Shown: positions 9,005 through 36,315 of the stretch, one piece after another
How positions within the stretch are numbered: the stretch's first letter is position 1
Layout: every line of letters starts with the position of its first letter
Source: Gammaproteobacteria bacterium
GTDB taxonomy: Bacteria; Pseudomonadota; Gammaproteobacteria; Steroidobacterales; UBA11654
Assembly (NCBI GenBank): GCA_029941465.1
Contig: JAPYQN010000010.1
Span: 6,754 to 43,072 of the forward strand
Direction of reading: 5' to 3'
DNA length: 36,319 nucleotides
The notes under the pieces: generated by a model
Told to the model about the DNA's origin: nothing
Database searches by the model: none
The model's input: only the letters and a program-made list of their open reading frames with translations
Translations under genes and position numbers: made by a program

Positions 9005-9295
9005 ATGAAACACATTTCAGAAGTGCTAAAGAATAACTTAAGTAATTTTAAGAATATCTCAGAATCTTTAGATAAAAAAACTATCATTTTAAAGAGTTTA
9101 AAGAAAAATATGGGTGACCTAGGTCAGCATATAACTGCTGCATATCTTGAAAAAAATAATACATTAATTATTGAATCAATTAATTCTGAAGCTTCATCAA
9201 GAATACGGTTTGAAGAACTAAGAATTAAAAAAATTTGTGAACAATTAGGATTTGTTCCTAAGAAAATAAAGTGTTTGGTCAAACAAGGTTACTAA
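9005..9295 (+). CDS. DUF721 / DciA-like protein (helicase-loader family)
   Basis: Small DUF721-like protein with LIIESINSEASSRIRFEELRIKKICEQLG; located between lpxC and secA as in other gammaproteobacteria. Confidence 0.65.
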   Translation: MKHISEVLKNNLSNFKNISESLDKKTIILKSLKKNMGDLGQHITAAYLEKNNTLIIESINSEASSRIRFEELRIKKICEQLGFVPKKIKCLVKQGY

Positions 9296-10206
9296 GCTTT
9301 ACCTAAAGCTGCAGTCCAATAAGAGATCGGTATGTCTGAAATTTCTGACTCCTCGACCTCTTCCCAGGCAGATTCATCCGCGTAAAGTTTTCTTATCAAC
9401 TTATTATTTAGTTCATGACCAGATTTATAGCCATTAAACTCTCCAACCAAAATATGACCCATGAGATATAAATCACCAATGGCATCCAAAATTTTATGTC
9501 TAACTAATTCATCCTCAAATCTTAATCCATCTTGATTTAAGATACGATAATCATCAAGGACGATAGCATTATCTAAACTACCACCTAGGGCTAAATTATT
9601 TGCCCTCAATGTTTCAATTTCTTTCAGAAAGCCAAAAGTTCGAGCTCTCGATATTTCATTTAGGAAAGTTAGAGTAGAAAAATCAAAGCTAAACTCTGTT
9701 AATTTATCCTGAATCATAGGGTGCTCGAATTCAATTTTAAAACTTAGTCGATAGCCATTAAAAGGTTTAAATTCAGCAAATTTATCATCTTCTTGCACTT
9801 TGACATTTTTTTTAATTCTAAGAAATTTCTTTGGTGCACTTTGCTCTATGATGCCTGCTAACTCAACTAATAAGATAAATGATGCAGCACTCCCATCCAT
9901 TATAGGTATCTCAGGTCCATGAATATCAATATAAGCATTATCAATTCCTAAACCTGCAAAAGCAGCTAAAAGATGCTCAACAGTCATAACTGAGACATTA
10001 TTTTGGGAGATAGTGGTTCCTAATCGAGTATCAGTTACATTGTTAGCATGAGCCTTAATTTCTTGTGCGGGGTCACAATCGATTCTTCTAAAACAAATTC
10101 CTGAATCTGCAGATGCAGGCCTTAAGGTTATTTCAACCTTTTCACCGCTGTGCAATCCAACACCTGCTGCAGATATTGTTTTACCTAAGGTTCGTTGATG
10201 AAGCAT
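9292..10206 (-). CDS. lpxC: UDP-3-O-acyl-N-acetylglucosamine deacetylase
   Basis: QRTLGKTISAAGVGLHSGEKV, TVEHLLAAFAGLGIDN, GHELNNKLIRKL. Confidence 0.97.
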   Translation of the reverse strand: MLHQRTLGKTISAAGVGLHSGEKVEITLRPASADSGICFRRIDCDPAQEIKAHANNVTDTRLGTTISQNNVSVMTVEHLLAAFAGLGIDNAYIDIHGPEIPIMDGSAASFILLVELAGIIEQSAPKKFLRIKKNVKVQEDDKFAEFKPFNGYRLSFKIEFEHPMIQDKLTEFSFDFSTLTFLNEISRARTFGFLKEIETLRANNLALGGSLDNAIVLDDYRILNQDGLRFEDELVRHKILDAIGDLYLMGHILVGEFNGYKSGHELNNKLIRKLYADESAWEEVEESEISDIPISYWTAALGKA

Positions 10207-10301: not shown

Positions 10302-11534
10302 TTATAGATTTGAGTTAAACCAAGTTTTAATTTTCTCAATCAATGTGGCAGAGGACTTTTGCTTTATTAATTCTTCAGGGTTTGATTTAAACTTTTTAAG
10401 TGCATATAAAAGTAACCCTGCTCCGGTTGCATTCTCTGGGCTATTGATGGTTTCAAAAGCACCGCTCATTGGTCGAGGATAACCAAGTCTAACATCTGAA
10501 GAGAACACTTCTTCTGCTAATTGAGCAGCTCCACTAAGCTGTGAAGCACCTCCCGTAAGAACAATACCTGCTCTAAGGTTTTCAGTATTCATTTTGCCAA
10601 TTTCATCTAATACAACTTCAAATAATTCTTGATAACGTTGTTCTACAACTGTTGAAAGAACTTTCAAATCAGTTTGTCTGGGAGCTCGGTCGCCAACACT
10701 TGGCACTTCAATCATCTCATTAGATCCGTTCAATTGAGATAATGTACGGGCGTGTTTTATTTTAATTTCCTCAGCACTATCAATTGGGGTTTTTAATTCA
10801 TGAGCAATATCTATAGTTACATGATCTCCACCAATGGGTATAACTTTTGTTGTAAGAATTTGGCCATCTTTAAAAATAGCAATATCAGTTGTGCCTCCCC
10901 CAATATCAATTAGACAAACCCCCAGATCTTTCTCATCTTTGGTTAACACAGACATGCTTGATGCAAGAGGCTCCAATACAATTTCCTGAACTTCTAGATT
11001 ACAACGTTCAAGTGATTTAACTATATTCTTCTCAGCACTTCTTGAGATAGTGACAATGTGAACATCTGCCTCCAAACGGATGCCAGACATTCCTATGGGA
11101 TCCCTAATTCCATCCTGACCGTCTATGACATAATCTTTTGGTAACACATGCAATATCCTCTCTTCAGAAGGGATTTTCATGGCTTTAGAAGCATCAATAG
11201 CCCCAGCTATGTCACGAAGGTTAACCTCCCCACTATTAATTCTGACAAAACCATGGCCATCATAGCTCCTTACATGGCTGCCAGCAATTCCTGCAAAGAC
11301 TGTATTAATCTCACACTCTGCTATCTTTTCTGCCTGTTCTATGGCCTTAGTAATGGATTCAATAGTGGCTTCTATATTAACAACCACTCCTTTCTTTAGG
11401 CCTGTGGATCTATTGAAACCTGCTCCAATAATTTTTAGCTCAGCATCATCATTAATCTCTGCTATAAGAGCAACTATTTTAGATGTACCAATATCGATAG
11501 CAGCTATGATTTCAGTGGAGTTACTTTTGGACAT
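10302..11534 (-). CDS. ftsA: Cell division protein FtsA
   Basis: AAIDIGTSKIVALI, IDIGGGTTDIAIF, VLTGGASQLSG, C-terminal amphipathic LIEKIKTWFNSNL. Confidence 0.97.
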   Translation of the reverse strand: MSKSNSTEIIAAIDIGTSKIVALIAEINDDAELKIIGAGFNRSTGLKKGVVVNIEATIESITKAIEQAEKIAECEINTVFAGIAGSHVRSYDGHGFVRINSGEVNLRDIAGAIDASKAMKIPSEERILHVLPKDYVIDGQDGIRDPIGMSGIRLEADVHIVTISRSAEKNIVKSLERCNLEVQEIVLEPLASSMSVLTKDEKDLGVCLIDIGGGTTDIAIFKDGQILTTKVIPIGGDHVTIDIAHELKTPIDSAEEIKIKHARTLSQLNGSNEMIEVPSVGDRAPRQTDLKVLSTVVEQRYQELFEVVLDEIGKMNTENLRAGIVLTGGASQLSGAAQLAEEVFSSDVRLGYPRPMSGAFETINSPENATGAGLLLYALKKFKSNPEELIKQKSSATLIEKIKTWFNSNL

Positions 11535-11546
11535 TATATTTTCAAC

Positions 11547-12341
11547 CTAATTCTTCCGTTTTATGACAAAACCTTCTGCATACCTAAGATCAATATAAGA
11601 AATTAATTCAAAATTTTCTAATAGAGATTTATCCCAAATCATTAAAAATCTATCAAATCTTTCATCTGTGTTCTGATCCCCTAATTTTATCTCTATTCCT
11701 GGTCTCACTGTTACACTCCAAGACCCTCTTAAATCAAGGCCTATTTTTTCTATCAGAATACCTCTGGCAATCAATTCATTATTATACAGTTTGAATTGCT
11801 CATAAACTTCATCAACTAAATCTTCGGGGCCAAAAAACTGGATTAACTCGCCTGGAATAACTCTTTTATCCAAAGCATATAAACTGCCAGATGAATTCAA
11901 CAACAGTTCATTATTCCATATTCCGACTACATCATCTTCAATAACAGTTATATTAATAGTGTCTGGCCACTCTTTAGATAACTGAACTGACTTCACCCAA
12001 TTAAAAGATTCTAATTTCTTTTTAATTAAGGATTGTCTAACACTCAAAAATCCCTTGTTTTTCATTTCTGAAGTAATTGATTGGATCGTTTTTAATGACA
12101 CCCGTTTAAAATCACTTTCTATATTGATCACACGAATAGGTTGATTTAAAGACACATAAATAAACGACAGTATTAGAGTAAATATTAGAACAAGTAAGAG
12201 GGACTTATAGGAACGTTTATTTTTGCTCCCTTGACGAAATTTACTAAAGAAATTAAAACGGGTTTGTTTCTTTTTATTCTTCTTAGTTTTTTTTAGAAAA
12301 CTCAATTTAATCAAGACTGGTTTTTTAAAATTTCTAAACAA
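11547..12341 (-). CDS. ftsQ: Cell division protein FtsQ (probable TTG start)
   Basis: Basic N-terminal tail, one TM, POTRA-type VINIESDFKRVSLKTIQ..., WPDTINITVIEDDVVGIWN; lies between ddlB and ftsA. Confidence 0.92.
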   Translation of the reverse strand: MFRNFKKPVLIKLSFLKKTKKNKKKQTRFNFFSKFRQGSKNKRSYKSLLLVLIFTLILSFIYVSLNQPIRVINIESDFKRVSLKTIQSITSEMKNKGFLSVRQSLIKKKLESFNWVKSVQLSKEWPDTINITVIEDDVVGIWNNELLLNSSGSLYALDKRVIPGELIQFFGPEDLVDEVYEQFKLYNNELIARGILIEKIGLDLRGSWSVTVRPGIEIKLGDQNTDERFDRFLMIWDKSLLENFELISYIDLRYAEGFVIKRKN

Positions 12342-13231
12342 AGGGTATTGAAATCTATTCCTTGTTCTTTAGCTGCCATCGGCACTAAGCTATGGGTTGT
12401 CATTCCTGGTACAGTATTTATTTCAAGAATCACTGGTCGATTTTCATCGTTTAAAAAAAAGTCTATTCTTCCCCACCCTCTTATCTTAAAAAGTTCAAAA
12501 ATAAATAAACACTCTTTCTTGATACTTTCTTCAACATCTTTATCTAGCTCACTTGGACAAATATATTTTGTTTCATCACTAAGGTACTTAGCTTCATAGT
12601 TATAAAACTCTTCATTGCTGGCATCAATTTTTACCAAGGGCAGCACCTTGTCTGCTAAGAATCCAGCGGTGTATTCAGGTCCATCAAAATATTTTTCAGC
12701 AATTATCCAGTCATTTAATTGGTGAATTTCTAAAAATTTCTCATTATATTGATCTTCGTCTTTGATAATAAAAATACCCAAACTAGATCCTTGAGAACAA
12801 GGCTTAATAATGAATGGAGATCCTAAAGTGTCTGAGATTTCCGAGAAAGTTGTGGTTTCATCTAATATCAAAAAATCTGGTGTCTGGTGATTGTTAGCCA
12901 TAAGGACTTTTTTCGTAAACAACTTATTCATGGTCAAAGAACAACTCAAGGTCCGACTACCCGTAAAAGGTATATCTGATAATTCCAACAGACTTTGAAT
13001 TTTCCCGTCCTCTCCATCTGCTCCATGAAGAGCTATCCAAACATTGTTAAATTTTTCATCTAATAATCGCTTTATAAAAGGTTCTTTGGTATCGATTAGA
13101 TGAGCATCGACTCCTTTTATTTTTAAAGCGTTATAAACAGCTTCACCAGAAATTAGAGAAATGTCCCGTTCTGATGAATTACCACCGTACAAAACAGCAA
13201 CTTTCCCAAAACCATTATTTGTTTTTGACAC
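12311..13231 (-). CDS. ddlB: D-alanine--D-alanine ligase (GTG start)
   Basis: VAVLYGGNSSERDISLISG, ALHGADGEDGKIQ, KPCSQGSSLGI, LEINTVPGMTTHSLVP. Confidence 0.96.
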   Translation of the reverse strand: MSKTNNGFGKVAVLYGGNSSERDISLISGEAVYNALKIKGVDAHLIDTKEPFIKRLLDEKFNNVWIALHGADGEDGKIQSLLELSDIPFTGSRTLSCSLTMNKLFTKKVLMANNHQTPDFLILDETTTFSEISDTLGSPFIIKPCSQGSSLGIFIIKDEDQYNEKFLEIHQLNDWIIAEKYFDGPEYTAGFLADKVLPLVKIDASNEEFYNYEAKYLSDETKYICPSELDKDVEESIKKECLFIFELFKIRGWGRIDFFLNDENRPVILEINTVPGMTTHSLVPMAAKEQGIDFNTLCLEILKNQS

Positions 13232-14138
13232 TTAATTTCTCGCCTATGATTCTAACTTCAGTCTCTAATTCTACATCAAACTGGCTACTGACAATTTCTT
13301 GAACATATTCAATCAGGTCCTCAATATTTTCTGATGTAGCATTACCCTCATTGACAATAAAATTTGCATGCTTAGTCGATATAGAAGATCCACCAATTCT
13401 ATAACCCTTTAGACCGGCTCTCTCAATCAGATCTCCTGCGTGCTCTCGTTCTGGGTTCTTGAAAACTGACCCACAAGTATCTTCAGTGAGAGGTTGTGTT
13501 TTAAACCTCTGGTCTCTCATTGATTTCAATTCAGATTTGGTGGTTATTTCAGATTCAGGAAATTGCATTAGGCAAGAGACGAAGCAGAGGGGAAAGGGAA
13601 ATTTGACTGTTCTGTAGGAAAATGTGAAATCTTTGGGGTCCAAGTGATGTATAACTCCATCTTGATCAATGACCTCCACAGATTCCACAAAATCCCAAGT
13701 TTCATGACCAAATGACCCCGCATTCATTGTAAGAGCCCCACCAACTGAACCAGGGATTCCAGAAAAGAATGCTGCAGGTCCCAATTGATTCTTTTCTGCA
13801 AACAACGCCAAATCCATACATGAAGCACCTGCTTCAACTCGGCAAGTATTATCTGCTTCTTTCTTAATCTTATTCAGTGATTTTTTTGTTGAAATAACAG
13901 AACCCCTAATACCTCCATCTCTAACTAAAACATTGGTTCCATTACCTAACCATGTAATGGGCTTGTCATAGTTTGACTTTAAGAACTGTGATAACTCATC
14001 ACGATTATCAGGCGCGAAGAAAGTATCCGCCGGTCCTCCTACTTTCCATGACGTGTATTTAGATAGTGGTTCATTGAAAAGGGACCGATCTTTGATTTTT
14101 TTAGTAATTTCACTCATATAATCCGCCATCACCCACAT
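13215..14138 (-). CDS. murB: UDP-N-acetylenolpyruvoylglucosamine reductase
   Basis: YTSWKVGGPADTFF, GNGTNVLVRDGGIRG, GIPGSVGGALTMNAG, GSVFKNP. Confidence 0.95.
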   Translation of the reverse strand: MWVMADYMSEITKKIKDRSLFNEPLSKYTSWKVGGPADTFFAPDNRDELSQFLKSNYDKPITWLGNGTNVLVRDGGIRGSVISTKKSLNKIKKEADNTCRVEAGASCMDLALFAEKNQLGPAAFFSGIPGSVGGALTMNAGSFGHETWDFVESVEVIDQDGVIHHLDPKDFTFSYRTVKFPFPLCFVSCLMQFPESEITTKSELKSMRDQRFKTQPLTEDTCGSVFKNPEREHAGDLIERAGLKGYRIGGSSISTKHANFIVNEGNATSENIEDLIEYVQEIVSSQFDVELETEVRIIGEKLSVKNK

Positions 14139-15294
14139 CCTTTAAAGGGGGCTGTTCTATCATTTTGTAGCAAAATTGAGCTATATTCTGGGTGGCATTG
14201 ACAAAAGTCTCATCATACGTTGCTTCTGCCATTTCACTGAGAATTCCTTCTTGTAAAAAAATCTTCTTTATTGTCTTTACTAGAATCTCTAACTTTAGAT
14301 CTTTATCCAAAATAACTTCAGCTCCTCCTTTTTTTGCAATAAATTGTGCATTAAACCATTGATGGTTATCCATGGCATGCGGAAATGGTATAAGAATGGA
14401 AGGCAAACCTATAGCGCTAGCCTCAGAAACTGTCATAGCGCCTGCTCTACTAATCAATAAATCTGCCCATTCATAAGCTTTTTCTATATTAGGATTAAAC
14501 CTTGTAATTTTGGCATCTATTCCCAACTCTAAGTATTGATCATTCACAGCCTCAAAGTCCTTTTCTCCAGAGTCATGCATTACTTCTACTGGAAGATCTG
14601 CCATCAATAAACTGATAGCTTTAGGAGCGATCATGTTGATAGATCTAGCGCCTTGACTACCACCCATTATAAAAATCCTAGGTTTTTTTGATTTGTCTGG
14701 AAATGATCTAACTATTCGATTGATATTGAGGATATCATCTCTGACTGGGTTACCCAGAAAGACATGGTCATCAGTTGAAAGTTTAAGAAAATTAGTCTTC
14801 CAGTCAAAGCCGCCTGGTAGCCCCTCAATAATGCCTCTGGCTTGGGTTGCTGCAATGTATCTGTTGGCTCTTCCTGCCTTAGCATTCTGCTCATGGATGG
14901 CTACATAGGGCATAATAATATTTCCTGGAAAATCTCCTTCAATTGTTTGAAGATAAAAAGCTGTTTTACAAAGATCGAATGAAGCATAACCACCCATTCC
15001 TAAAATCAATTGTGGAGATAGTTCAGCTACATATCTTCTCAATTCCCGATCTGGTCTAGTTAAGGCAGCTAAATATTTTTTAAGTCTAGATGTGTCCTTG
15101 AACCTATTCTTAAAAAAAACAGTCTCAATGTCATATTGAGCAAATATTTTCTTTTCCAGAGCATTGCCGGTACCAACAATTACAACTTTATGTCCGTCAG
15201 ATTTAAATTTTTTTGCCAACGCTATAGCTGGGAAAATATGTCCGCCTGTGCCGCCGGCACCAATGAGGATAGTGTATTTTTTTTCTTCAGCCAT
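14110..15294 (-). CDS. murG: Undecaprenyl-PP-MurNAc-pentapeptide GlcNAc transferase
   Basis: GAGGTGGHIFPAIALA, HEQNAKAGRANR, GNPVRDDIL, GGSQGARSIN, SRAGAMTVSEASAIGLP. Confidence 0.96.
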   Translation of the reverse strand: MAEEKKYTILIGAGGTGGHIFPAIALAKKFKSDGHKVVIVGTGNALEKKIFAQYDIETVFFKNRFKDTSRLKKYLAALTRPDRELRRYVAELSPQLILGMGGYASFDLCKTAFYLQTIEGDFPGNIIMPYVAIHEQNAKAGRANRYIAATQARGIIEGLPGGFDWKTNFLKLSTDDHVFLGNPVRDDILNINRIVRSFPDKSKKPRIFIMGGSQGARSINMIAPKAISLLMADLPVEVMHDSGEKDFEAVNDQYLELGIDAKITRFNPNIEKAYEWADLLISRAGAMTVSEASAIGLPSILIPFPHAMDNHQWFNAQFIAKKGGAEVILDKDLKLEILVKTIKKIFLQEGILSEMAEATYDETFVNATQNIAQFCYKMIEQPPLKDVGDGGLYE

Positions 15295-16444
15295 TGGTTC
15301 TTAGATTTTTCTTTGGTTGAGGGTTTTCACAACCTATTCTCAATACCATAGCTAAAGTAATCAGTGTAATTGCGATACTGCTGCTACCATAGCTGATTAA
15401 AGGTAGCGTAAGCCCTTTGGTTGGAAGAAGACCCATATTAACTCCAAGATTAATAATAACTTGGAGTGATAACCATATCCCTATCGAAATACACAAATAA
15501 CCTTGAAACATAAGCTCTGATCTAATGGCTTTAAACCCAATGATAAAGATTCTAGAAATTAGAAGGCCATATAAAGACAGAATCAATACCGTTCCCATTA
15601 AACCTAATTCTTCAGCAATGATGGCAAAAATAAAATCCGTATGAGCCTCAGGTAAATAGAATAATTTTTGAATGCTCTCACCTAAACCAACACCAAATAT
15701 TCCCCCACTCCCTATAGCAATTAATGAATTGGTTAATTGATAGCCAGCACCGAGTGAATCTTTCCATGGTTCAAGAAAACCTGCAAGGCGACTCATCCTG
15801 TATGGCTCAATATATATTAGAAATGCAAAGGCAAGGCCCAAGATGATAATAAGCGCGATAAAGTATCTTATTTTAAACCCAGCAATAAAGAATAAGCCGG
15901 CAGTGACTGAGAGTATGATGACTGTTGAGCCAAAATCGGGTTGTCCTAAAAGCAGAAGGCAAGCCGGAATAATGAATATCATCGGTTTGACAAAACTCAT
16001 AAAATCATTGGTTAAGGTTTCTTGCTGTCTATAGCAATAACCAGAAATATAAATTAACAGCAGTAACCTAGCTGGATCTACTACTTGTATATTTGGCAAA
16101 GGACCTATCTTAATCCAGCGTGTTGCTCCGTTTGCTGTCACCCCTATATCAGGAATAAACACTATAGTTAGGAGTCCAATAGCTAATATTGGCAGAAGAA
16201 TTCCAAACTTTTCCCACATACGACTTGGAATTAGGAAGGTAATGAAACCGGCCGATAGGCCTAATCCAATTGAAAAGATTTGTTTATATACATAACCGTA
16301 GGGATCTCCGAGATTCTTAACTGCGATCGGCATTGAAGCTGAAGCTAACATCACCAATCCACCTATCAATAGAACAACTGTGACTATAATAAATAAATGG
16401 TCTATGCCATGAAAAAGATTGGTTTGTCGTCTATCTGAGCCCAA
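15287..16444 (-). CDS. ftsW: SEDS-family glycosyltransferase FtsW (TTG start)
   Basis: GATRWIKIGPLPNIQ, GQPDFGSTVI, LPEAHTDFIFAIIAEELG, LPLISYGSSS; AGGA SD about 8 nt before TTG. Confidence 0.95.
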   Translation of the reverse strand: MGSDRRQTNLFHGIDHLFIIVTVVLLIGGLVMLASASMPIAVKNLGDPYGYVYKQIFSIGLGLSAGFITFLIPSRMWEKFGILLPILAIGLLTIVFIPDIGVTANGATRWIKIGPLPNIQVVDPARLLLLIYISGYCYRQQETLTNDFMSFVKPMIFIIPACLLLLGQPDFGSTVIILSVTAGLFFIAGFKIRYFIALIIILGLAFAFLIYIEPYRMSRLAGFLEPWKDSLGAGYQLTNSLIAIGSGGIFGVGLGESIQKLFYLPEAHTDFIFAIIAEELGLMGTVLILSLYGLLISRIFIIGFKAIRSELMFQGYLCISIGIWLSLQVIINLGVNMGLLPTKGLTLPLISYGSSSIAITLITLAMVLRIGCENPQPKKNLRTNG

Positions 16445-16476: not shown

Positions 16477-17556
16477 TCATCGAATCTTAAGGCTAGATAA
16501 ACCTATTAATACCAAAAAAACAGTAATAATCCAGAAACGAACAATGACCTTAGGCTCTGCCCAGCCTTTTAATTCAAAATGATGGTGAATTGGTGCCATA
16601 TTAAATATTCTTTTACCTCTAATTTTGTAGGAACCAACTTGCAAAATTACTGAGAGCGTTTCCATAATGAACACTCCACCCATGATTGCTAGCACTAGTT
16701 CTTGCTTAACAACTACTGAGATTAACCCCAGAGTTCCCCCTAAAGAAATAGCACCAACATCGCCCATAAACACTTGAGCTGGATAAGTGTTGAACCATAA
16801 AAATCCTAAACCTGCTCCAGAAATAGCACAACATATCACAAAAACTTCACCCGCTTCTCTTAGGAATGGAAGATCTAAATAAGAAGAAAAATTTATATTG
16901 CCAGTGACGTAAGCAAAAATACCCAAAGCGATGGAAATCATCACTACCGGCACAATTGCAAGACCATCAAGGCCATCGGTAAGATTAACAGCATTACTAG
17001 AACCAACAATTACAAAGATAGCAAAAGGTAAAAACACCCATCCAAGATCTATCCTTACATTATTGGTAAAAGGTATCAGTAAGTCTGTGGTAATAGGCTC
17101 TACTGAGCCATAGAATAAATAGCTTATAGCCCCATAAGCAACACCAATTTGCATGAAAAATTTTATGGAGGCACGCAGACCATTTTTATTGCCTTTTAAC
17201 TTTATAAGATCGTCAATCAAGCCAATTAGACCAAATAGGAGCATACTGATCAAAATAGTAATGATGTAGCTATTGGTAAGATCGCTCCATATCAATGTAC
17301 TAATTGATACTGAAAGTAAAATCAGAATACCTCCCATTGTTGGAGTACCTTTTTTCTTAGAGTGGGATCTTGGTCCATCTTCTCTTATGGATTCCCCAAT
17401 ATCATTACCTTCCAACAGGTTGATTAACTTAGGCCCAAAAATAAATGAAATAACTAAAGCCGTCAAGGCACTCAAAATTCCTCGCGTGGTAATATATGTG
17501 AAGGCATTAAATGCAGAGAAGATTTCAATCAACTGATCTGAGAAAAATAAAAACAA
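16477..17556 (-). CDS. mraY: Phospho-N-acetylmuramoyl-pentapeptide-transferase (TTG start)
   Basis: KKGTPTMGGILIL, NAVNLTDGLDGLA, FMGDVGAISLGG, APIHHHFELKGW. Confidence 0.97.
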   Translation of the reverse strand: MFLFFSDQLIEIFSAFNAFTYITTRGILSALTALVISFIFGPKLINLLEGNDIGESIREDGPRSHSKKKGTPTMGGILILLSVSISTLIWSDLTNSYIITILISMLLFGLIGLIDDLIKLKGNKNGLRASIKFFMQIGVAYGAISYLFYGSVEPITTDLLIPFTNNVRIDLGWVFLPFAIFVIVGSSNAVNLTDGLDGLAIVPVVMISIALGIFAYVTGNINFSSYLDLPFLREAGEVFVICCAISGAGLGFLWFNTYPAQVFMGDVGAISLGGTLGLISVVVKQELVLAIMGGVFIMETLSVILQVGSYKIRGKRIFNMAPIHHHFELKGWAEPKVIVRFWIITVFLVLIGLSSLKIR

Positions 17557-17623: not shown

Positions 17624-19297
17624 TTATTTTTTATCTGGTGAAACCCCCAAAAGTCTAAGTGTTCTCGATGCGATTGAAGAAAATATTGGAGCTGCAACCT
17701 GACCCCCATAATACTCTCTTCCTTGGGGCTCATTAACAATGACTGCAACAACTATTCTAGGCTCAGAGATAGGGGCAATACCAACAAAAATAGCATTATG
17801 AGCATCTCGTGAATAATTAGCTGCAGCAATTTGTGCAGTGCCTGTTTTTCCACCAACCCTATAACCATTAATTTGTGCTCTGACAGCAGACCGTTCCACA
17901 ACTTGCTCAAGCATCAATAAAAGTGTCTGAGATGTTTGCTCTGACAATACTCTATTGCCTGTTTCTAGTTGATCAATTCGTTCAAGAGAAATATTATTCT
18001 TAACTCCTCCATTCGCTATTGTTGCATAAGCATTTGCCAATTGAATTAAATTAACATCAACGTTATAACCAAAAGCTAAAGAAGCACGCATGCCATCTCT
18101 CCAACGTTGATATGAGTTGTCTAGAGTCCCTGAAGTTTCCCCAGGAAAACCTGAAGCAGTTGCTTGCCCAATGCCTAATTTTGATAGAATTTCATAAAAT
18201 AATTCTGGGTCAGTTGATAGTGAAATTTTTGAGGCTCCAACATTACTGGATTTAATCAATATCTCACCTAGACTAAGTGGTCCATAATATCTTGGATCCT
18301 TAATTTCTCTTGAGCCGATTGAATAAGGAAGGGTGTCAATCGTGTCTGTTGAATTAAAAATTCCATGCTCAAGAGCAGTCGCAATAATTAAGGGTTTAAA
18401 CGTTGATCCAGGTTCAAATTTATCCGTAAGAGCTCGATTCTTATAAAACTTGGGTAATCGAAGTTTGAGATTACTCATATCTGCAGAAGGATTATTCACA
18501 ATGGCTAATACCTCACCAGTTTTAATGTCTAAAACAACCGCAGAAGCTTGCTTTGCTTGAGAGATATTCACTCCTTCATTAAGAGCGGCATGAGCTATAT
18601 ATTGAATCCTAACATCTATGCTCGTATGAAAATCTTTCCCTTGTTTAGCTGGCTGAATAATTTCAACATCTTCAATAGTATGTAAACCAATATCAGTAAT
18701 TGCTTTTTTTTTGCCATCTTTTCCTGACAAATAATCATTAAGAGCATACTCTAAGCCCTCTTGACCTTGATCATTGTTATCATTGAATCCTATGATCTGT
18801 GTTGTGATCTCTCCATTGGGATTAAATCTTTTATAAGCCTTCTCTAACCAAAAGTAATTGCTTTTTTTTAGGCGATTAATTACAGCTACTTGATCTTTGC
18901 CTAACTCTCTGGAGAGGATAAAATATCTTCTAGATGATCTTTTCTTGATCTCCTGATCAAGTACTGAATGATTGATTTTTAATACTGAAGCCAAAGACTT
19001 AGACAACTCCTGGTATCGACTTGAAGATAAAAATATCTTGGGATCTACCACTAGATTGCTAACTGGGATACTGACAGCCAAAGGGTTAGAATTTCGATCA
19101 TATATAGTGCCTCGACTTGATGGGATAGTGAGAGTTTTTATATGTTTTTTCTCACCTTCAGCACTTAAAAAATCAGATTCAATATATTGAAGATAAAATG
19201 ATCTAGATAAAAGAATAATGATTAGAGTAATAAGAATAAGGCTCAGAAAAATAAATCGGCTCCTAATAAGCCTTAAATTATTACTGCTTATCTTCAT
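17624..19297 (-). CDS. ftsI: Peptidoglycan transpeptidase FtsI / PBP3
   Basis: SRGTIYDRNSNPLAVS, FEPGSTFKPLII (SxxK), SSN (SxN), GKTGTAQ (KTG). Confidence 0.96.
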   Translation of the reverse strand: MKISSNNLRLIRSRFIFLSLILITLIIILLSRSFYLQYIESDFLSAEGEKKHIKTLTIPSSRGTIYDRNSNPLAVSIPVSNLVVDPKIFLSSSRYQELSKSLASVLKINHSVLDQEIKKRSSRRYFILSRELGKDQVAVINRLKKSNYFWLEKAYKRFNPNGEITTQIIGFNDNNDQGQEGLEYALNDYLSGKDGKKKAITDIGLHTIEDVEIIQPAKQGKDFHTSIDVRIQYIAHAALNEGVNISQAKQASAVVLDIKTGEVLAIVNNPSADMSNLKLRLPKFYKNRALTDKFEPGSTFKPLIIATALEHGIFNSTDTIDTLPYSIGSREIKDPRYYGPLSLGEILIKSSNVGASKISLSTDPELFYEILSKLGIGQATASGFPGETSGTLDNSYQRWRDGMRASLAFGYNVDVNLIQLANAYATIANGGVKNNISLERIDQLETGNRVLSEQTSQTLLLMLEQVVERSAVRAQINGYRVGGKTGTAQIAAANYSRDAHNAIFVGIAPISEPRIVVAVIVNEPQGREYYGGQVAAPIFSSIASRTLRLLGVSPDKK

Positions 19298-19574
19298 TAA
19301 TTAATAATACTTTTATTTTTGAAGAATCTGGTAATTGCATTGATGCCTTTTCATTAGCCTCTTTTTCTAAACTCATTCCAGATAAAAGCTCCGAGAGATC
19401 CAAACGAAGTTCCTTCCATTTAATCTCTAACTGATCCTGCTGTTTGACTAATAATTGATATTGCTTAAATAGCTCTCTATTTTTGTAATGTGTATCTATT
19501 TCGTAAGTTGCAGTAACAGCAACCATTAAAAACCAGAATAAAGGCCACTTATACCAATTGAGCTTATCTTTCAT
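19281..19574 (-). CDS. ftsL: Cell division protein FtsL
   Basis: Short single-TM coiled-coil protein between rsmH and ftsI. Confidence 0.82.
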   Translation of the reverse strand: MKDKLNWYKWPLFWFLMVAVTATYEIDTHYKNRELFKQYQLLVKQQDQLEIKWKELRLDLSELLSGMSLEKEANEKASMQLPDSSKIKVLLINEDKQ

Positions 19575-20500
19575 TTTATTTTTTCAGCAGCCCTTAATAT
19601 CGCACTTCGTGATCTTGGATTGGTTTTGACCTCCTCGTCTGAAGGTTTAATTTTCTTTAATATAACTTTTAATTTTGATGTGTCTTCAATATTTGGCAGC
19701 TTAGATAAAGTGGGATCTATTCTTGAGTTATCTCTAAAAAAACGTTTAACGATGCGATCCTCAAGTGAATGAAAACTAATAACAGCAATTCTTCCACCAG
19801 GTTTTAGACGTTCTAAACTAAAATCTAATAATGATCTTAACTCCTCAAGTTCATCATTAATATGCATTCTAATGGCTTGAAATGTTTTAGTGGCCGGGTG
19901 CTTTTTTTCTTTTTTTATAGAATGTTTTTTTATTTGATAAATAAGATCAGCAAGTTCTCTGGTGCTATTAAATGACTTAATACTTCTTTGTTCTATTATT
20001 GTTTTCGCAATTTTTCTTGAGTACGACTCTTCTCCATACTTCCAAATTATCCCTGAGATCTCATCTTCAGGGGCTCTATTGATCCAGTCTTTAGCTGAAA
20101 TGCCTGTTGTTTGATCCATTCTCATATCCAACTCAGCATCTTTCTTAAAACTAAAACCTCTTTCTTTAGAGTCTAATTGATGCGATGAAACACCCAAATC
20201 AGCTATGATTCCATCAAATGTAAAAGAACAATCCAGTTGATTTATTTCTTTTCTTAAGCTTCTAAAATTACTTTTAAGAATAGTGAGTTGAGGATGAGAA
20301 AACTTAGACTTAAGATAAGCAATTGAGTCTTGATCTCTATCAGCTGCTATTAGATGTCCTTGATTATCCAAACTTTCTAAAATTAATTGTGTGTGACCTC
20401 CAAATCCAGCTGTAGCGTCTAGATATAAGCCCTCTGCAGTAGTCATCATTACCTTTGTGGATTCTTTAGCAAGGACAGGTATGTGTAATGTATTGAACAT
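19571..20500 (-). CDS. rsmH: 16S rRNA m4C1402 methyltransferase RsmH (MraW)
   Basis: HIPVLAKESTKVM, DATAGFGGHTQLIL, DLGVSSHQLDSKERGFSF, FHSLEDRIVKRFF. Confidence 0.97.
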   Translation of the reverse strand: MFNTLHIPVLAKESTKVMMTTAEGLYLDATAGFGGHTQLILESLDNQGHLIAADRDQDSIAYLKSKFSHPQLTILKSNFRSLRKEINQLDCSFTFDGIIADLGVSSHQLDSKERGFSFKKDAELDMRMDQTTGISAKDWINRAPEDEISGIIWKYGEESYSRKIAKTIIEQRSIKSFNSTRELADLIYQIKKHSIKKEKKHPATKTFQAIRMHINDELEELRSLLDFSLERLKPGGRIAVISFHSLEDRIVKRFFRDNSRIDPTLSKLPNIEDTSKLKVILKKIKPSDEEVKTNPRSRSAILRAAEKIK

Positions 20501-20532
20501 AACTAAAGAATTTAGATTTTATAAAATAGATA

Positions 20533-20550
20533 ATGCCTAAAATTAGGCAT
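20533..20550 (-). promoter_or_regulatory. Perfect hairpin spanning the ftsZ stop codon; possible attenuator, terminator or processing site
   Basis: + strand ATGCCTAA-AA-TTAGGCAT; minus RNA AUGCCUA-AUUU-UAGGCAU followed by UAUCUAUUUUAU. Confidence 0.55.
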
Positions 20551-21694
20551 CCTGTCTTTTCAAAAATTGAGGGACATCAAGTATTTCTAAGTCTTCATGT
20601 TTCCCAATAATCGCTTCTTCCTTATTTTCAAATAGATCCTTAGTCTCTCTTAATGGATTTCTTTCAGTTATAGGTCTGTCAAGGTTACTGAAATTAGTTT
20701 GATCCTTTATCTTATTCTCAGATTGTCTCTCACCTAAACCAGTTGCAACGATAGTTACTCTGATTGAATCATTCATATTCTTTGAGATAGCTGTACCAAC
20801 TATTACCTTAGCCTTATCTGAAGCATAACTTTTGACTATCCCGCCAATTTCATCAAATTCTGATATTTCAAGATCTTCATCTGCCGTAACATTGAGTAAA
20901 ATTCCTTTAGCTCCTTGCAAATCAATATCCTCCAGCAAAGGGCTATTCACTGCTTCTTCAATTGCTCTTCGCCCTCGGTCAGGCCCAGAAGCCACTGCAG
21001 AACCCATAATTCCTCTCCCTTTATCACTCATAACTTTTTTAACATCTGCAAAATCAAGATTCATTAGGCCTGGAACGGTAATCAGTCCAACGATACCTTG
21101 CACTGAATTTAGTAAAACATCATTTGCAGCTTCAAAAGCTTTTACTAGGGTAATTTTCTTGCCCAATGATTGTAATTTATCATTAGGTATTATGATGAGT
21201 GAATCGACATGTTTCTCTAATTCTTTTATGCCTTCTTCAGCATATTGAGTTCTTAAATCACCCTCCCAATTGAAAGGCTTAGTAACTACGGCAACGGTTA
21301 AAATACCTAACTCTTTTGCAATCTCAGCTATAACAGGGCTTGCTCCAGTCCCTGTGCCCCCACCAAAGCCTGCTGTAATGAACAACATATCTGTTTCAGA
21401 TATTGCATTTGCTATTGCTTCCTTGCTTTCTTTTGCTGATTCACTCCCTATACCTGGATCCATACCAGCACCTAAACCTTTAGTGGTATCTATGCCTATT
21501 TGTATCTTTGTTGCAACATGGGATTGTGCTAAATCTTGAGCATCTGTATTAGCACATAGAAAATCGACACCCTCCATCCCCTTAGAGATCATGTGACCAA
21601 CTGCATTGCCTCCGCTTCCACCAACCCCAATTACCTTTATATTGGCTTTCTGATCAGCCGTATCATCTATTACAAACGCAAAATCTACCATCAT
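20543..21694 (-). CDS. ftsZ: Cell division GTPase FtsZ
   Basis: GGSGGNAVGHMI, GFGGGTGTGASPVIAEIAKE, NDKLQ, C-terminal DVPQFLKRQ. Confidence 0.98.
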   Translation of the reverse strand: MMVDFAFVIDDTADQKANIKVIGVGGSGGNAVGHMISKGMEGVDFLCANTDAQDLAQSHVATKIQIGIDTTKGLGAGMDPGIGSESAKESKEAIANAISETDMLFITAGFGGGTGTGASPVIAEIAKELGILTVAVVTKPFNWEGDLRTQYAEEGIKELEKHVDSLIIIPNDKLQSLGKKITLVKAFEAANDVLLNSVQGIVGLITVPGLMNLDFADVKKVMSDKGRGIMGSAVASGPDRGRRAIEEAVNSPLLEDIDLQGAKGILLNVTADEDLEISEFDEIGGIVKSYASDKAKVIVGTAISKNMNDSIRVTIVATGLGERQSENKIKDQTNFSNLDRPITERNPLRETKDLFENKEEAIIGKHEDLEILDVPQFLKRQDA

Positions 21695-21706
21695 TTCTCC
21701 TAATTT

Positions 21707-22156
21707 CTATAATGACAACATCTCAAAATCTTTGGGTAAGGTAAATTTTTCTTCCTGTAACCATTTCTCTCGAGACTTAGTCCATGTTAAATAATCCCAG
21801 ATTTCAAAACGCTTACCCTGGCCTATAAACATGGCTTCTTTATTAATTTTTGAAAATTCTCTTAGCTCTGAAGGAATTAAAATTCTTGCTGAAGAATCTA
21901 TTTCTATTTCAACTGCATGACCTACAAGCAATCTCTGTAATTTCCTACTGGAATTATCAAGGCTTGGCAGTTTCATTATTTTCTCTTCTATCTTTAACCA
22001 GTGATGTAGTGGATATAATAAAAGACAGTGATCTAGATCTATTGTGCAAATCAGCTTATTCTTGGAAACTTTAATTAGCTCATGTCTATATTTTGTGGGA
22101 ATCGAAACCCGACCCTTAGCATCAAGACTAATTTTATTTAAACCTCTAAACATCAT
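21707..22156 (-). CDS. mraZ: Transcriptional regulator MraZ (start trimmed to ATG at 22156)
   Basis: FRGLNKISLDAKGRVSIPTKYR and SSARILIPSELREFSKI AbrB-like repeats; the ORF track start at 22198 overlaps the promoter/MraZ-box region. Confidence 0.93.
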   Translation of the reverse strand: MMFRGLNKISLDAKGRVSIPTKYRHELIKVSKNKLICTIDLDHCLLLYPLHHWLKIEEKIMKLPSLDNSSRKLQRLLVGHAVEIEIDSSARILIPSELREFSKINKEAMFIGQGKRFEIWDYLTWTKSREKWLQEEKFTLPKDFEMLSL

Positions 22157-22182
22157 ATATAACAATAGGAACACAGTAAATA

Positions 22183-22197
22183 TCCCACTTTTTACCA
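22183..22197 (-). promoter_or_regulatory. Candidate MraZ box: TGGTA-N5-TGGGA (10-bp periodic)
   Basis: Minus strand TGGTAaaaagTGGGA between the promoter and the mraZ ATG; matches the known TGGGN-N5 direct-repeat layout with one degenerate copy. Confidence 0.6.
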
Positions 22198-22206
22198 CTC
22201 AAATAC

Positions 22207-22234
22207 ACTATAGTTTATTGGTAAGTTATGTCAA
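22207..22234 (-). promoter_or_regulatory. Sigma-70-type promoter for mraZ-ftsZ and the dcw cluster
   Basis: Minus strand TTGACA-N16-TATAGT, located between the rnpB 3' end and mraZ. Confidence 0.75.
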
Positions 22235-22270
22235 CCGAAAGATGATTAGAAAATAGCTCTAATTAGAGAA

Positions 22271-22606
22271 AAGGAGTTGGTCTATAAGCCGGGTTCTGTC
22301 TTGGACAATCATTCATCTGGGATGCTTGTCACCAAACACCTCTAGCAACCTACCCTAGAGCGATTACGGGATATCATAGCTCTTCTATTTGGTTTTGCTC
22401 TCGATGGGGTTTGCAATGCCATAAATGTTACCATTTATGCGGTGCGCTCTTACCACACCTTTTCACCCTTACTTTATCAAAGCGGTTTATTTTCTGTTGC
22501 ACTTTCCAGAGGCTCACGCCTTCCAGGAATTACCTGGCATCGTACCCGTTAGAGCCCGGACTTTCCTCCAAATTAATTTATTTGGCGATTGTCTGACCAA
22601 CTCCGA
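22271..22606 (-). ncRNA. rnpB: RNase P RNA, bacterial class A
   Basis: Minus strand contains GGAGTTGGTCAGACAATCGCC...GGAGGAAAGTCCGGGCTC...AGGGTGAAAAGGTGTGGTAAGAGCGCACCGC...GACAGAACCCGGCTTATAGACCAACTCC; P1 arms GGAGTTGGTC/GACCAACTCC pair perfectly; U-rich 3' end. Confidence 0.97.
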
Positions 22607-26748: not shown

Positions 26749-28005
26749 TCATGACTCAATTCTTTCCACTTGTGCACCAATAAGAGAAAGCTTCTTGTCA
26801 ATATTCTCATAGCCTCTATCAATATGATAAATACGATCAATTTCAGTTTCCCCATTAGCTACAAGAGCAGCCAATACTAAAGCCGCTGATGCTCTTAAAT
26901 CAGTTGCCATCACTTGGGCGCTTTGTAATTGGCTAACGCCTTTAATTTTAGCAATATTACTTTGCAACTTGATATTAGCTCCCATTCTTTGTAATTCAAG
27001 AACATGCATAAACCTATTTTCAAAAATTGTCTCTTCTATACTTGACTCACCTTGGGCTAAAACGTTTAAGACCATCAATTGCGCTTGTATATCAGTTGGA
27101 ATACCTGGATAAGGACTGGTAGTGAAACTCACAGGAATAATTTCATTCAATGAAGTTACTTCTATAAATTCTTGTGCTATAGATATTGATGCTCCTGCCT
27201 CTTCAAGCAAGTTAATGGGTTCCCTTAAGTGTTCTGCTAAAGCCCCGTTCAATTTTAGATTACTTTTGGTAATTAATGCTGCAATTAAAAAAGTCGCTGC
27301 TTCTATTCTGTCAGGTATTACCCGACAAGCTGTTGCTTCCAATTTATCAACTCCCTCTATGAGTATGTGGTCACTACCTAGTCCGTTTATTTTTGCACCC
27401 ATTGAAATTAGAAACTCTCCTAAGTTAACTATCTCTGGTTCTTTAGCGCAATTATTTAGAATAGTTGCACCTTCAGCCAAACAAGCTGCCATCATCAGAT
27501 TAGCAGTTCCCGTGACTGAAACAGGATTAAATGAAAACTCACACCCTTTTAACCGTCTTGCTTTGGCATGAATATAACCGTTTTTTAAATCGATCTCTGC
27601 ACCCATTGCTTTTAACCCTTCAATATGAAGATTGACAGGTCTAGCCCCTATTGCACAGCCCCCTGGTAATGAAACAACAGCTTCACCAAAACGTGCTAAA
27701 AGTGGACCCAATACCAAAATTGATGCCCTCATGGTTTTAACCAAATCGTATGGTGCAAATTTCTCTTTGATACGATGAGCATTAATTTTTACTGTGTTAT
27801 CTGAAGTTTTAGAAATTTTTACACCCATATATGTGATCAATCTAATCATTGTGTTGATATCCCGAAGGGCTGGGATATTATCAATTTCAACTTCTTCAGA
27901 GCATAAAAGACATGCAGCCATAATAGGTAATGCTGCATTTTTTGAACCAGAGATGTTCAACTCTCCATTTAGAGAATACCTCCCTTTGATTCTTAGTTTT
28001 TGCAA
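26749..28005 (-). CDS. murA: UDP-N-acetylglucosamine 1-carboxyvinyltransferase (TTG start)
   Basis: LNISGSKNAALPI, LVKTMRASILVLGPLLARFG, GGCAIGARPVNLHI (active-site Cys retained). Confidence 0.97.
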   Translation of the reverse strand: MQKLRIKGRYSLNGELNISGSKNAALPIMAACLLCSEEVEIDNIPALRDINTMIRLITYMGVKISKTSDNTVKINAHRIKEKFAPYDLVKTMRASILVLGPLLARFGEAVVSLPGGCAIGARPVNLHIEGLKAMGAEIDLKNGYIHAKARRLKGCEFSFNPVSVTGTANLMMAACLAEGATILNNCAKEPEIVNLGEFLISMGAKINGLGSDHILIEGVDKLEATACRVIPDRIEAATFLIAALITKSNLKLNGALAEHLREPINLLEEAGASISIAQEFIEVTSLNEIIPVSFTTSPYPGIPTDIQAQLMVLNVLAQGESSIEETIFENRFMHVLELQRMGANIKLQSNIAKIKGVSQLQSAQVMATDLRASAALVLAALVANGETEIDRIYHIDRGYENIDKKLSLIGAQVERIES

Positions 28006-35046: not shown

Positions 35047-35955
35047 TTAATTGTGATCGTGGTCATGATCATGATCATGATAATGAGGGTACTCAAAATC
35101 AGTGAAATGATTATGTCCATCAGGTGAGCGAATCCATTTATACAGAGACGGTTTCAAGCGCCTAAGTCTAGCCGCTGCTCTGTCTGCATTATCCTTAGGG
35201 GTTGACCAAGGGTTATGATGGAAATAATTGTGAAGATGAGCATCAGTTCGCCCGATTGCAATAATGCCATTTTTGCTAGCAAAGGCACCATGATTAATAT
35301 AGGGCGGTCTCCAGAAATACCCTCCTGTCGGTAAGTCACCAAATTGCATCATCCATGAAGTCCCCCAAATATGATAAGACTCTTCACAACAGTCATGATA
35401 TGAAATATTGTCTTGTTGAAACCCTGGTGTCATGCAATACAAGAAAGTGTGTGCTTCTGTGTGTAAGTCATATTTTAAAAGTTTCAACATGCAACCGGAT
35501 GCAACAGACGGAACAATTCTATTTCCAGGCATCCAATGAATATCTTCCATAGAGTTGATGATAGATAAACGATGGCGTTCAGCTAATGGGTGATCCTCAT
35601 CAGAAGCAACAAAACTTGGTTCACCATAATTGTAGAACATTATGGCAACAGCTCCTTTGCTCACTTTCATTACCGGCATGGTTACGCCTGGAGGAATAAG
35701 GAAGTAATAGCCCTCGCCATAAGTTTTATCACCATAGGTTATTGAGCCTGACACAATAAAGAGTTCAAGTTCAGAATAACTCATCCCCGCCGGTAGCTTA
35801 TAGCCACTTTCAAATTTAACTTTTAATGAACACGCCCCTGTATCAGTGTCCATACTTAAAACTTTGTAATGCATACCCTTGTTAAAACCAGGCAATGTCA
35901 TACGTTTGTATGCTGCCGGTCTTTCGTCATAAGGTTCTATGTGTGGTCTTGGCAT
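35047..35955 (-). CDS. Bicupin-like protein with His/Asp-rich C-terminal tail
   Basis: LELFIVSGSITYGDKTYGEGYYFLIPPGV cupin-like half; second half with SYHDCCEESYHIWG...PPYINHGAF; tail HYHDHDHDHDHN. Confidence 0.65.
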   Translation of the reverse strand: MPRPHIEPYDERPAAYKRMTLPGFNKGMHYKVLSMDTDTGACSLKVKFESGYKLPAGMSYSELELFIVSGSITYGDKTYGEGYYFLIPPGVTMPVMKVSKGAVAIMFYNYGEPSFVASDEDHPLAERHRLSIINSMEDIHWMPGNRIVPSVASGCMLKLLKYDLHTEAHTFLYCMTPGFQQDNISYHDCCEESYHIWGTSWMMQFGDLPTGGYFWRPPYINHGAFASKNGIIAIGRTDAHLHNYFHHNPWSTPKDNADRAAARLRRLKPSLYKWIRSPDGHNHFTDFEYPHYHDHDHDHDHN

Positions 35956-35973
35956 AATCTCTATCCTTTTATA

Positions 35974-36315
35974 TTAATGGTCAAATCCTTTGAGATCTTT
36001 AGGTTCATAAGTAACTTTGGTTTTTCTTCTTGGTTTTTTAGGTAAGTCTTCCCTTGCTATCACCATTCTGGTATCGCCATCAATGTTTTGCCCTCGAGTT
36101 GTAATTCGATCAAAAAATTCTTCAAACCATTTATCTCGTTTAGGAGTAATTTCCTCCATGTGTTCTAAGATTTTTTTGAAACGTTTTTGCTGTTGTTTCA
36201 GCTCATTTTTCATCCAAGCTTTTACTGGTTTAGATTGTTTATGATCTATAGAATTTAAAGGTTTTTCTTTGCCTGAAGCTCTTCCTTCTGAAGCTTCACC
36301 CATTTGATTGGCCAT
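35974..36315 (-). CDS. Hypothetical basic/charged protein, may extend beyond the window edge
   Basis: 113-aa ORF, no recognised family, same strand and 18 bp from the cupin gene. Confidence 0.6.
   Translation of the reverse strand: MANQMGEASEGRASGKEKPLNSIDHKQSKPVKAWMKNELKQQQKRFKKILEHMEEITPKRDKWFEEFFDRITTRGQNIDGDTRMVIAREDLPKKPRRKTKVTYEPKDLKGFDH

Follow-up and report, generated by a model that had tools for sequence, protein, structure and literature searches.

Relocation of ftsZ to a slot between mraZ and rsmH in a gammaproteobacterial family, behind a putative MraZ operator

The stretch of DNA analysed here (36,319 nucleotides, hereafter the window) comes from a draft genome of 1.39 Mb in 52 contigs that is 91.8% complete, and it carries on its minus strand a dcw cluster in which curated family models, helped by position for ftsI, murG and ftsQ, give the order mraZ-ftsZ-rsmH-ftsL-ftsI-mraY-ftsW-murG-murB-ddlB-ftsQ-ftsA-lpxC (Table 1). 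The gammaproteobacterial order mraZ-rsmH-ftsL-ftsI-...-ftsQ-ftsA-ftsZ-lpxC is not what is found: ftsZ stands second, after mraZ and ahead of rsmH, and the gene after ftsA is lpxC. An earlier note on this DNA, made from the letters alone, had read the genes in this way, with ftsZ starting 12 bp after the mraZ stop codon, about 9 kb away from ftsA, and with no copy between ftsA and lpxC. Each of these readings stands: the order is exactly that, the spacing is indeed 12 bp, about 9.0 kb separate the ftsZ stop from the ftsA start (11534) and the 95-bp gap between ftsA and lpxC is without any ftsZ remnant. At its other end, ftsZ is separated from rsmH by 42 bp. Elsewhere in the window, a small ORF without NCBIfam match (9005-9295, plus strand) sits between secA and lpxC on the opposite strand, a position that we take to resemble that of the DUF721 gene near lpxC/secA in pseudomonads, and two ORFs (35047-36315, minus strand), one of them with a histidine-rich tail and a cupin-like look, adjoin a CoA-transferase-like gene.

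Table 1. Features of the window around the relocated ftsZ (positions are those of the whole stretch).
Feature	Position	Strand	Evidence and remarks
rnpB (RNase P RNA class A)	22269..22604	-	Rfam RF00010, 326 bits; upstream neighbour of mraZ, co-directional
Promoter, sigma-70-type, TTGACA-16-TATAGT	22207..22234	-	11/12 matches; 5' of mraZ
Putative MraZ operator GTGGTAAAAAGTGGGATA	22181..22198	-	Two GTGGN units at 10-bp spacing, immediately 3' of the -10
mraZ, dcw repressor	21707..22156 (ATG start)	-	TIGR00242, 140 bits (cut-off 98)
ftsZ, relocated	20543..21694	-	383 aa; TIGR00065, 403 bits (cut-off 295)
Terminator-like hairpin	20532..20551	-	8-pair stem; spans the ftsZ stop codon
rsmH	19571..20500	-	TIGR00006, 345 bits
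ftsL	19281..19574	-	TIGR02209
ftsI	17624..19297	-	Best full-length matches PBP2/FtsI models, below cut-offs; between ftsL and mraY
mraY	16477..17556	-	TIGR00445
ftsW	15287..16444	-	TIGR02614
murG	14110..15294	-	TIGR01133, 240 bits, slightly below cut-off (250); expected position
murB	13215..14138	-	NF010480
ddlB	12311..13231	-	NF002378
ftsQ	11547..12341	-	NF008043, weak match below cut-off (80.9 bits); expected position
ftsA	10302..11534	-	TIGR01174
lpxC	9292..10206	-	TIGR00325; directly 3' of ftsA
murA, outside the dcw cluster	26749..28005	-	TIGR01072, 556 bits

The order mraZ-ftsZ-rsmH recurs in nine genomes of the genus (that of the window and G001, G002, G003, G004, G005, G007, G008 and G009), which are all those in which both ftsZ junctions are visible. 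The assembly of G006 is without ftsZ. The family's other genus is represented by a single genome, in which ftsZ is cut by the contig start and followed by rsmH. All 20 loci read from 12 other families of the order have ftsA immediately 5' of ftsZ. Since the arrangement is shared by the nine genomes and the sister genus while the canonical one prevails in 12 other families, the ftsZ move is a trait common to the family. The relocated gene encodes what, judged by its sequence, is an intact FtsZ that scores above the TIGR00065 cut-off. Intactness was assessed by the GTP signature GGGTGTG, the T7 catalytic loop NxDxAD and the C-terminal FtsA/ZipA-binding peptide, and the window protein has all three (GGGTGTG at residue 111, T7 loop NLDFADV and C-terminal tail ILDVPQFLKRQDA). 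GGGTGTG and NLDFADV are intact in 9/9 family loci, and the C-terminal peptide D[IV]PxFLxRQ, or a near form of it, in eight of the nine proteins. The gene is single-copy, with one tubulin-family (PF00091) match in the window genome and one FtsZ per genome across the nine; G009 gives two matches, but these are halves of one and the same frame, broken in the assembly.

TTGACA-16-TATAGT, between rnpB and mraZ, is the best promoter-like match in the region, and the promoter and the GTGGTAAAAAGTGGGATA box are conserved in 9/9 family loci, whereas the surrounding spacer is not; together they form the best conserved non-coding block at these loci. Within the window, GTGGTAAAAAGTGGGATA is the sole match at up to three mismatches (0.05 expected). 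In all nine loci, mraZ would carry MraZ boxes in its own promoter, two GTGGN units at 10-bp spacing that form a putative operator; the role of MraZ has been summarized elsewhere (PMC7761207; PMC8475190). The mechanically called mraZ ORF starts at a GTG (22198) that lies inside the operator and in frame. Automatic start calling adds 14 residues to MraZ, read from its operator (22198-22157, minus strand, in the window), and does so in every family genome; gene callers tend to start mraZ too early because the MraZ box holds an in-frame GTG. In the eight genomes whose ftsZ frame is intact, mraZ and ftsZ are 10-19 bp apart, and the Shine-Dalgarno sequence before ftsZ is clear in some genomes and weak in others. 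A weak promoter-like match lies just 5' of ftsZ (21718-21690, 9/12), but such matches are no commoner than chance. The hairpin at the ftsZ stop is strongest in the window genome and is not conserved among the family relatives, so a conserved ftsZ-rsmH terminator that sets the dose was rejected.

To gauge how unusual this slot is, the Gammaproteobacteria were sampled evenly, with one genome for each family; of these 143 genomes, 135 have FtsZ. Among the 89 ftsZ loci read outside the window's family, ftsA is directly upstream in 78, three are cut off upstream but continue into lpxC, one is uninformative and seven are displaced; most of the remaining sampled genomes were judged solely by an mraZ-ftsZ distance of 13-23 kb on one contig, by eye. 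The seven displaced-ftsZ families show ftsZ-mraZ-rsmH (L196), ftsZ-rsmH with mraZ absent (L203), mraZ-rsmH-ftsZ (L150, L151 and L152), rsmH-ftsI-ftsZ-murE (L184, the Saanich Inlet assembly SI034_bin82, also L033) and an ftsZ outside any cluster (L156), so that in five of them ftsZ is among the first cluster genes, mostly in different slots. These lineages mainly have genomes of 0.9-1.9 Mb. A 24,386-aa open frame around the ftsZ of another genome (G075) was discarded as very probably a run of N, because the 3001 bases directly 5' of that ftsZ are all N. Within the sampled gammaproteobacteria, the exact order mraZ-ftsZ-rsmH was seen only in the window's family, where it is present in the nine genomes of the genus, and no paper describing it was found in the literature searched. 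The earlier note had known of no described gammaproteobacterial lineage with this order; within this sample that holds for the exact order, while displacement of ftsZ in itself is seen in seven other families.

The family genomes are all incomplete drafts, that of the window included, which could speak for an assembly artefact or for a second ftsZ copy escaping view, and the earlier note had itself named misassembly and a second ftsZ as grounds for doubt. However, the same order on independent contigs in nine genomes excludes chance or misassembly, both junctions recurring each time, and a second ftsZ was rejected on the single PF00091/FtsZ match per genome, so that we regard this explanation as highly improbable. 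A different possibility is a xenologous replacement, with loss of the original gene and insertion of a foreign ftsZ between mraZ and rsmH. It would be in accord with the larger FtsZ tree, which puts the family outside its otherwise well-supported order, but that tree is dominated by long branches and, once these are removed, the family joins its order, although weakly (support 32), leaving a foreign ftsZ unsupported. LpxC groups the family with its order at support 100, which FtsZ does not reject and neither does FtsA (AU test, p 0.75), and the identity of the family FtsZ to that of the order (52-59%) is similar to what is seen for FtsA and LpxC. Nothing in the protein trees points to a foreign copy replacing ftsZ; a lateral origin from another gammaproteobacterium appears unlikely, and we give replacement only a slight chance.

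The scenario that we favour, and consider probable although by a good way not assured, is that the resident ftsZ moved in the ancestor of this family of small-genome gammaproteobacteria and is now the second gene of an MraZ-controlled dcw transcript, yielding more FtsZ than FtsA. The resident gene, not a foreign substitute, would have left its position 3' of ftsA for the mraZ-rsmH gap, where it would have remained. It would now be read second on a transcript from a single strong sigma-70-type promoter, with the MraZ operator overlapping its downstream side. As the second gene behind such a promoter, ftsZ would have its synthesis follow MraZ autoregulation directly, and more FtsZ than FtsA would be made, since ftsA is reached only after about another 10 kb. 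E. coli uses promoters inside ddlB-ftsA for ftsZ, and promoters of this type would no longer adjoin ftsZ in the family. Co-transcription of mraZ and ftsZ under MraZ seems likely from the arrangement of the locus, and the near-consensus promoter, the conserved MraZ-box-like operator and the 10-19 bp gap make direct MraZ control and close coupling of ftsZ plausible; repression by MraZ, translational coupling and the FtsZ:FtsA ratio are what we infer from gene order, motifs and tight spacing. A possible counterpoint is rnpB, which is upstream and co-directional and might read through into mraZ-ftsZ.

The earlier note had placed ftsZ directly under the mraZ promoter and possibly coupled to MraZ translation. 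The promoter, the operator and the short gap make this plausible, but MraZ control of ftsZ does not depend on the window's order, because in Burkholderia cenocepacia everything from mraZ to ftsZ is one transcript from an MraZ-regulated promoter (PMC7761207). With a distal ftsZ already on an MraZ transcript there, the new element is, on our analysis, the position of ftsZ, MraZ control as such being already known. The same finding favours a neutral rearrangement, in which ftsZ moved during genome reduction and cluster remodelling to a slot without special regulatory meaning, there being one MraZ-controlled transcript either way. This would also be in accord with the seven other sampled families, in which displaced ftsZ occupies several slots, five of them near the cluster head. 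Against it, most displaced ftsZ genes, in otherwise largely colinear clusters, sit among the first cluster genes. This may hint at selection for promoter proximity, as far as a small sample of perhaps not independent lineages allows, and we consider a neutral move rather unlikely while taking it seriously.

Four genes that E. coli has in its dcw cluster, murE, murF, murD and murC, are absent from that of the window, where the corresponding sites (ftsI then mraY, mraY then ftsW, murG then murB) are closed, with -29 to 67 bp between the flanking genes. Searches for Mur-ligase domains in 11 family genomes found MurF, Mpl and FolC, the last of these assigned in the window genome, whose three genes of this type are L211 (MurF), L212 (Mpl) and L213 (FolC). 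MurF and Mpl are present in 11/11 genomes. The Mpl of the window genome, encoded away from the dcw cluster, scores 516.8 bits with TIGR01081 (cut-off 388.7) and only 269.8 with the murC model (cut-off 335.1), and its TAFFDKRSK fits the Mpl motif (S/T)AFFDKRSK (PMC3060825). MurC, MurD and MurE were found in G007 but in none of the other 10 draft genomes, glutamate racemase (MurI) was found in 0/11, alanine racemase (Alr) in 0/11 above cut-off and DapA in two, being missing from nine. The probability that a gene was missed in all ten other genomes by random incompleteness is about 6e-9, calculated as the product of (1 - completeness) over the ten and assuming independence.

G007 has a block of dapB-dapA-dapD-lysA, an M14 peptidase gene and dapF-murC-murD-murE between a glyoxalase/rhodanese pair and a MOSC gene, in which the reading frames of murE and murD look short at their 5' ends; the block looks native (L253, G007:C14, 2529-11931). 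Contamination as its source was rejected, because the contig has the GC content of its genome and shares 62-68% identity with the relatives in ccmF. In eight other genomes, including the window's, the rhodanese gene directly adjoins the MOSC gene. G004 (L252/L261, G004:C1) has dapB-dapA-dapD-lysA at a different site, next to genes for arginine biosynthesis and for an M14-type peptidase; in three relatives this site is empty. Islands for amino-acid synthesis thus differ between genomes within the family, and the closed sites speak for a genuine absence of the dap/mur genes there in the relatives, as far as the assembled sequences go.

The apparent loss of MurC/D/E, MurI, Alr and usually DapA, with Mpl and MurF kept, suggests that the family may build its cell walls from scavenged stem peptides, the ftsZ move perhaps being part of the same cluster rebuilding. 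We put this forward tentatively, as a possibility on which we would not yet bet. The enzymes that remain are MurA, MurB, Mpl, MurF, DdlB, MraY, MurG and those of septal synthesis. Mpl would charge UDP-MurNAc with murein tripeptide (L-Ala-D-Glu-mDAP) imported from outside, MurF would complete the UDP-MurNAc-pentapeptide after this step, and the promoter-proximal relocation of ftsZ would be one part of the wider rebuilding of the dcw cluster. In P. arcticus, Mpl takes the mDAP tripeptide in strong preference to L-Ala, and a murC mutant can be rescued by overexpressing the Mpl of E. coli (PMC3060825). Chlamydia has a DapF that also serves as glutamate racemase (PMC5885031), and a similar double role would explain how G007 manages without MurI. 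No paper on Mpl-only wall synthesis was found in the literature searched. If true, the loss of the stem-peptide ligases would make this a walled bacterium dependent on peptidoglycan fragments of others. Such a nutritional dependence would be new in kind, and Mpl would have a direct use as an essential enzyme; this side result is possibly weightier than the relocation of ftsZ.

The relocation itself matters because the level of FtsZ times division, and because few gene orders in proteobacteria are as conserved as that with a distal ftsZ after ftsA. A family with ftsZ beside its regulator, together with the other head-of-cluster lineages, offers a natural test of gene order against the FtsZ:FtsA ratio.

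From mraZ to lpxC, the dcw cluster of E. coli K-12 has the same relative gene order as the window, save for ftsZ and the Mur ligases: in the window ftsZ is second rather than last, murE, murF, murD and murC are out of the cluster and murB is in it. Both have MraZ boxes beside a sigma-70 promoter 5' of mraZ, which in E. coli are GTGGG repeats with a 10-bp period; at the equivalent place E. coli has GTGGGAAATTGTGGGGCAAAGTGGGAA, which shares unit and spacing with GTGGTAAAAAGTGGGATA of the family, although with three units instead of two. According to Eraso et al. in 2014, MraZ reportedly binds a repeat of this E. coli type. In B. cenocepacia, an MraZ-regulated promoter 5' of mraZ governs ftsZ much as proposed here, but ftsZ is at the distal end of a 15-gene transcript and not the second gene (PMC7761207). 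The mraZ-mraW-MG_223-ftsZ cluster of Mycoplasma genitalium, in which loss of MraZ raises the ftsZ transcript, has a short mraZ-ftsZ distance as in the window, but it is a four-gene cluster of a wall-less relative of the Firmicutes, with ftsZ after mraW (rsmH) and not before it (PMC8475190). Also comparable are the gammaproteobacterial lineages L196, L203, L150/L151/L152 and L184/L033, which also have ftsZ in the front half of the dcw cluster, although in other slots, in families outside the window's order and with the Mur ligases kept where visible.
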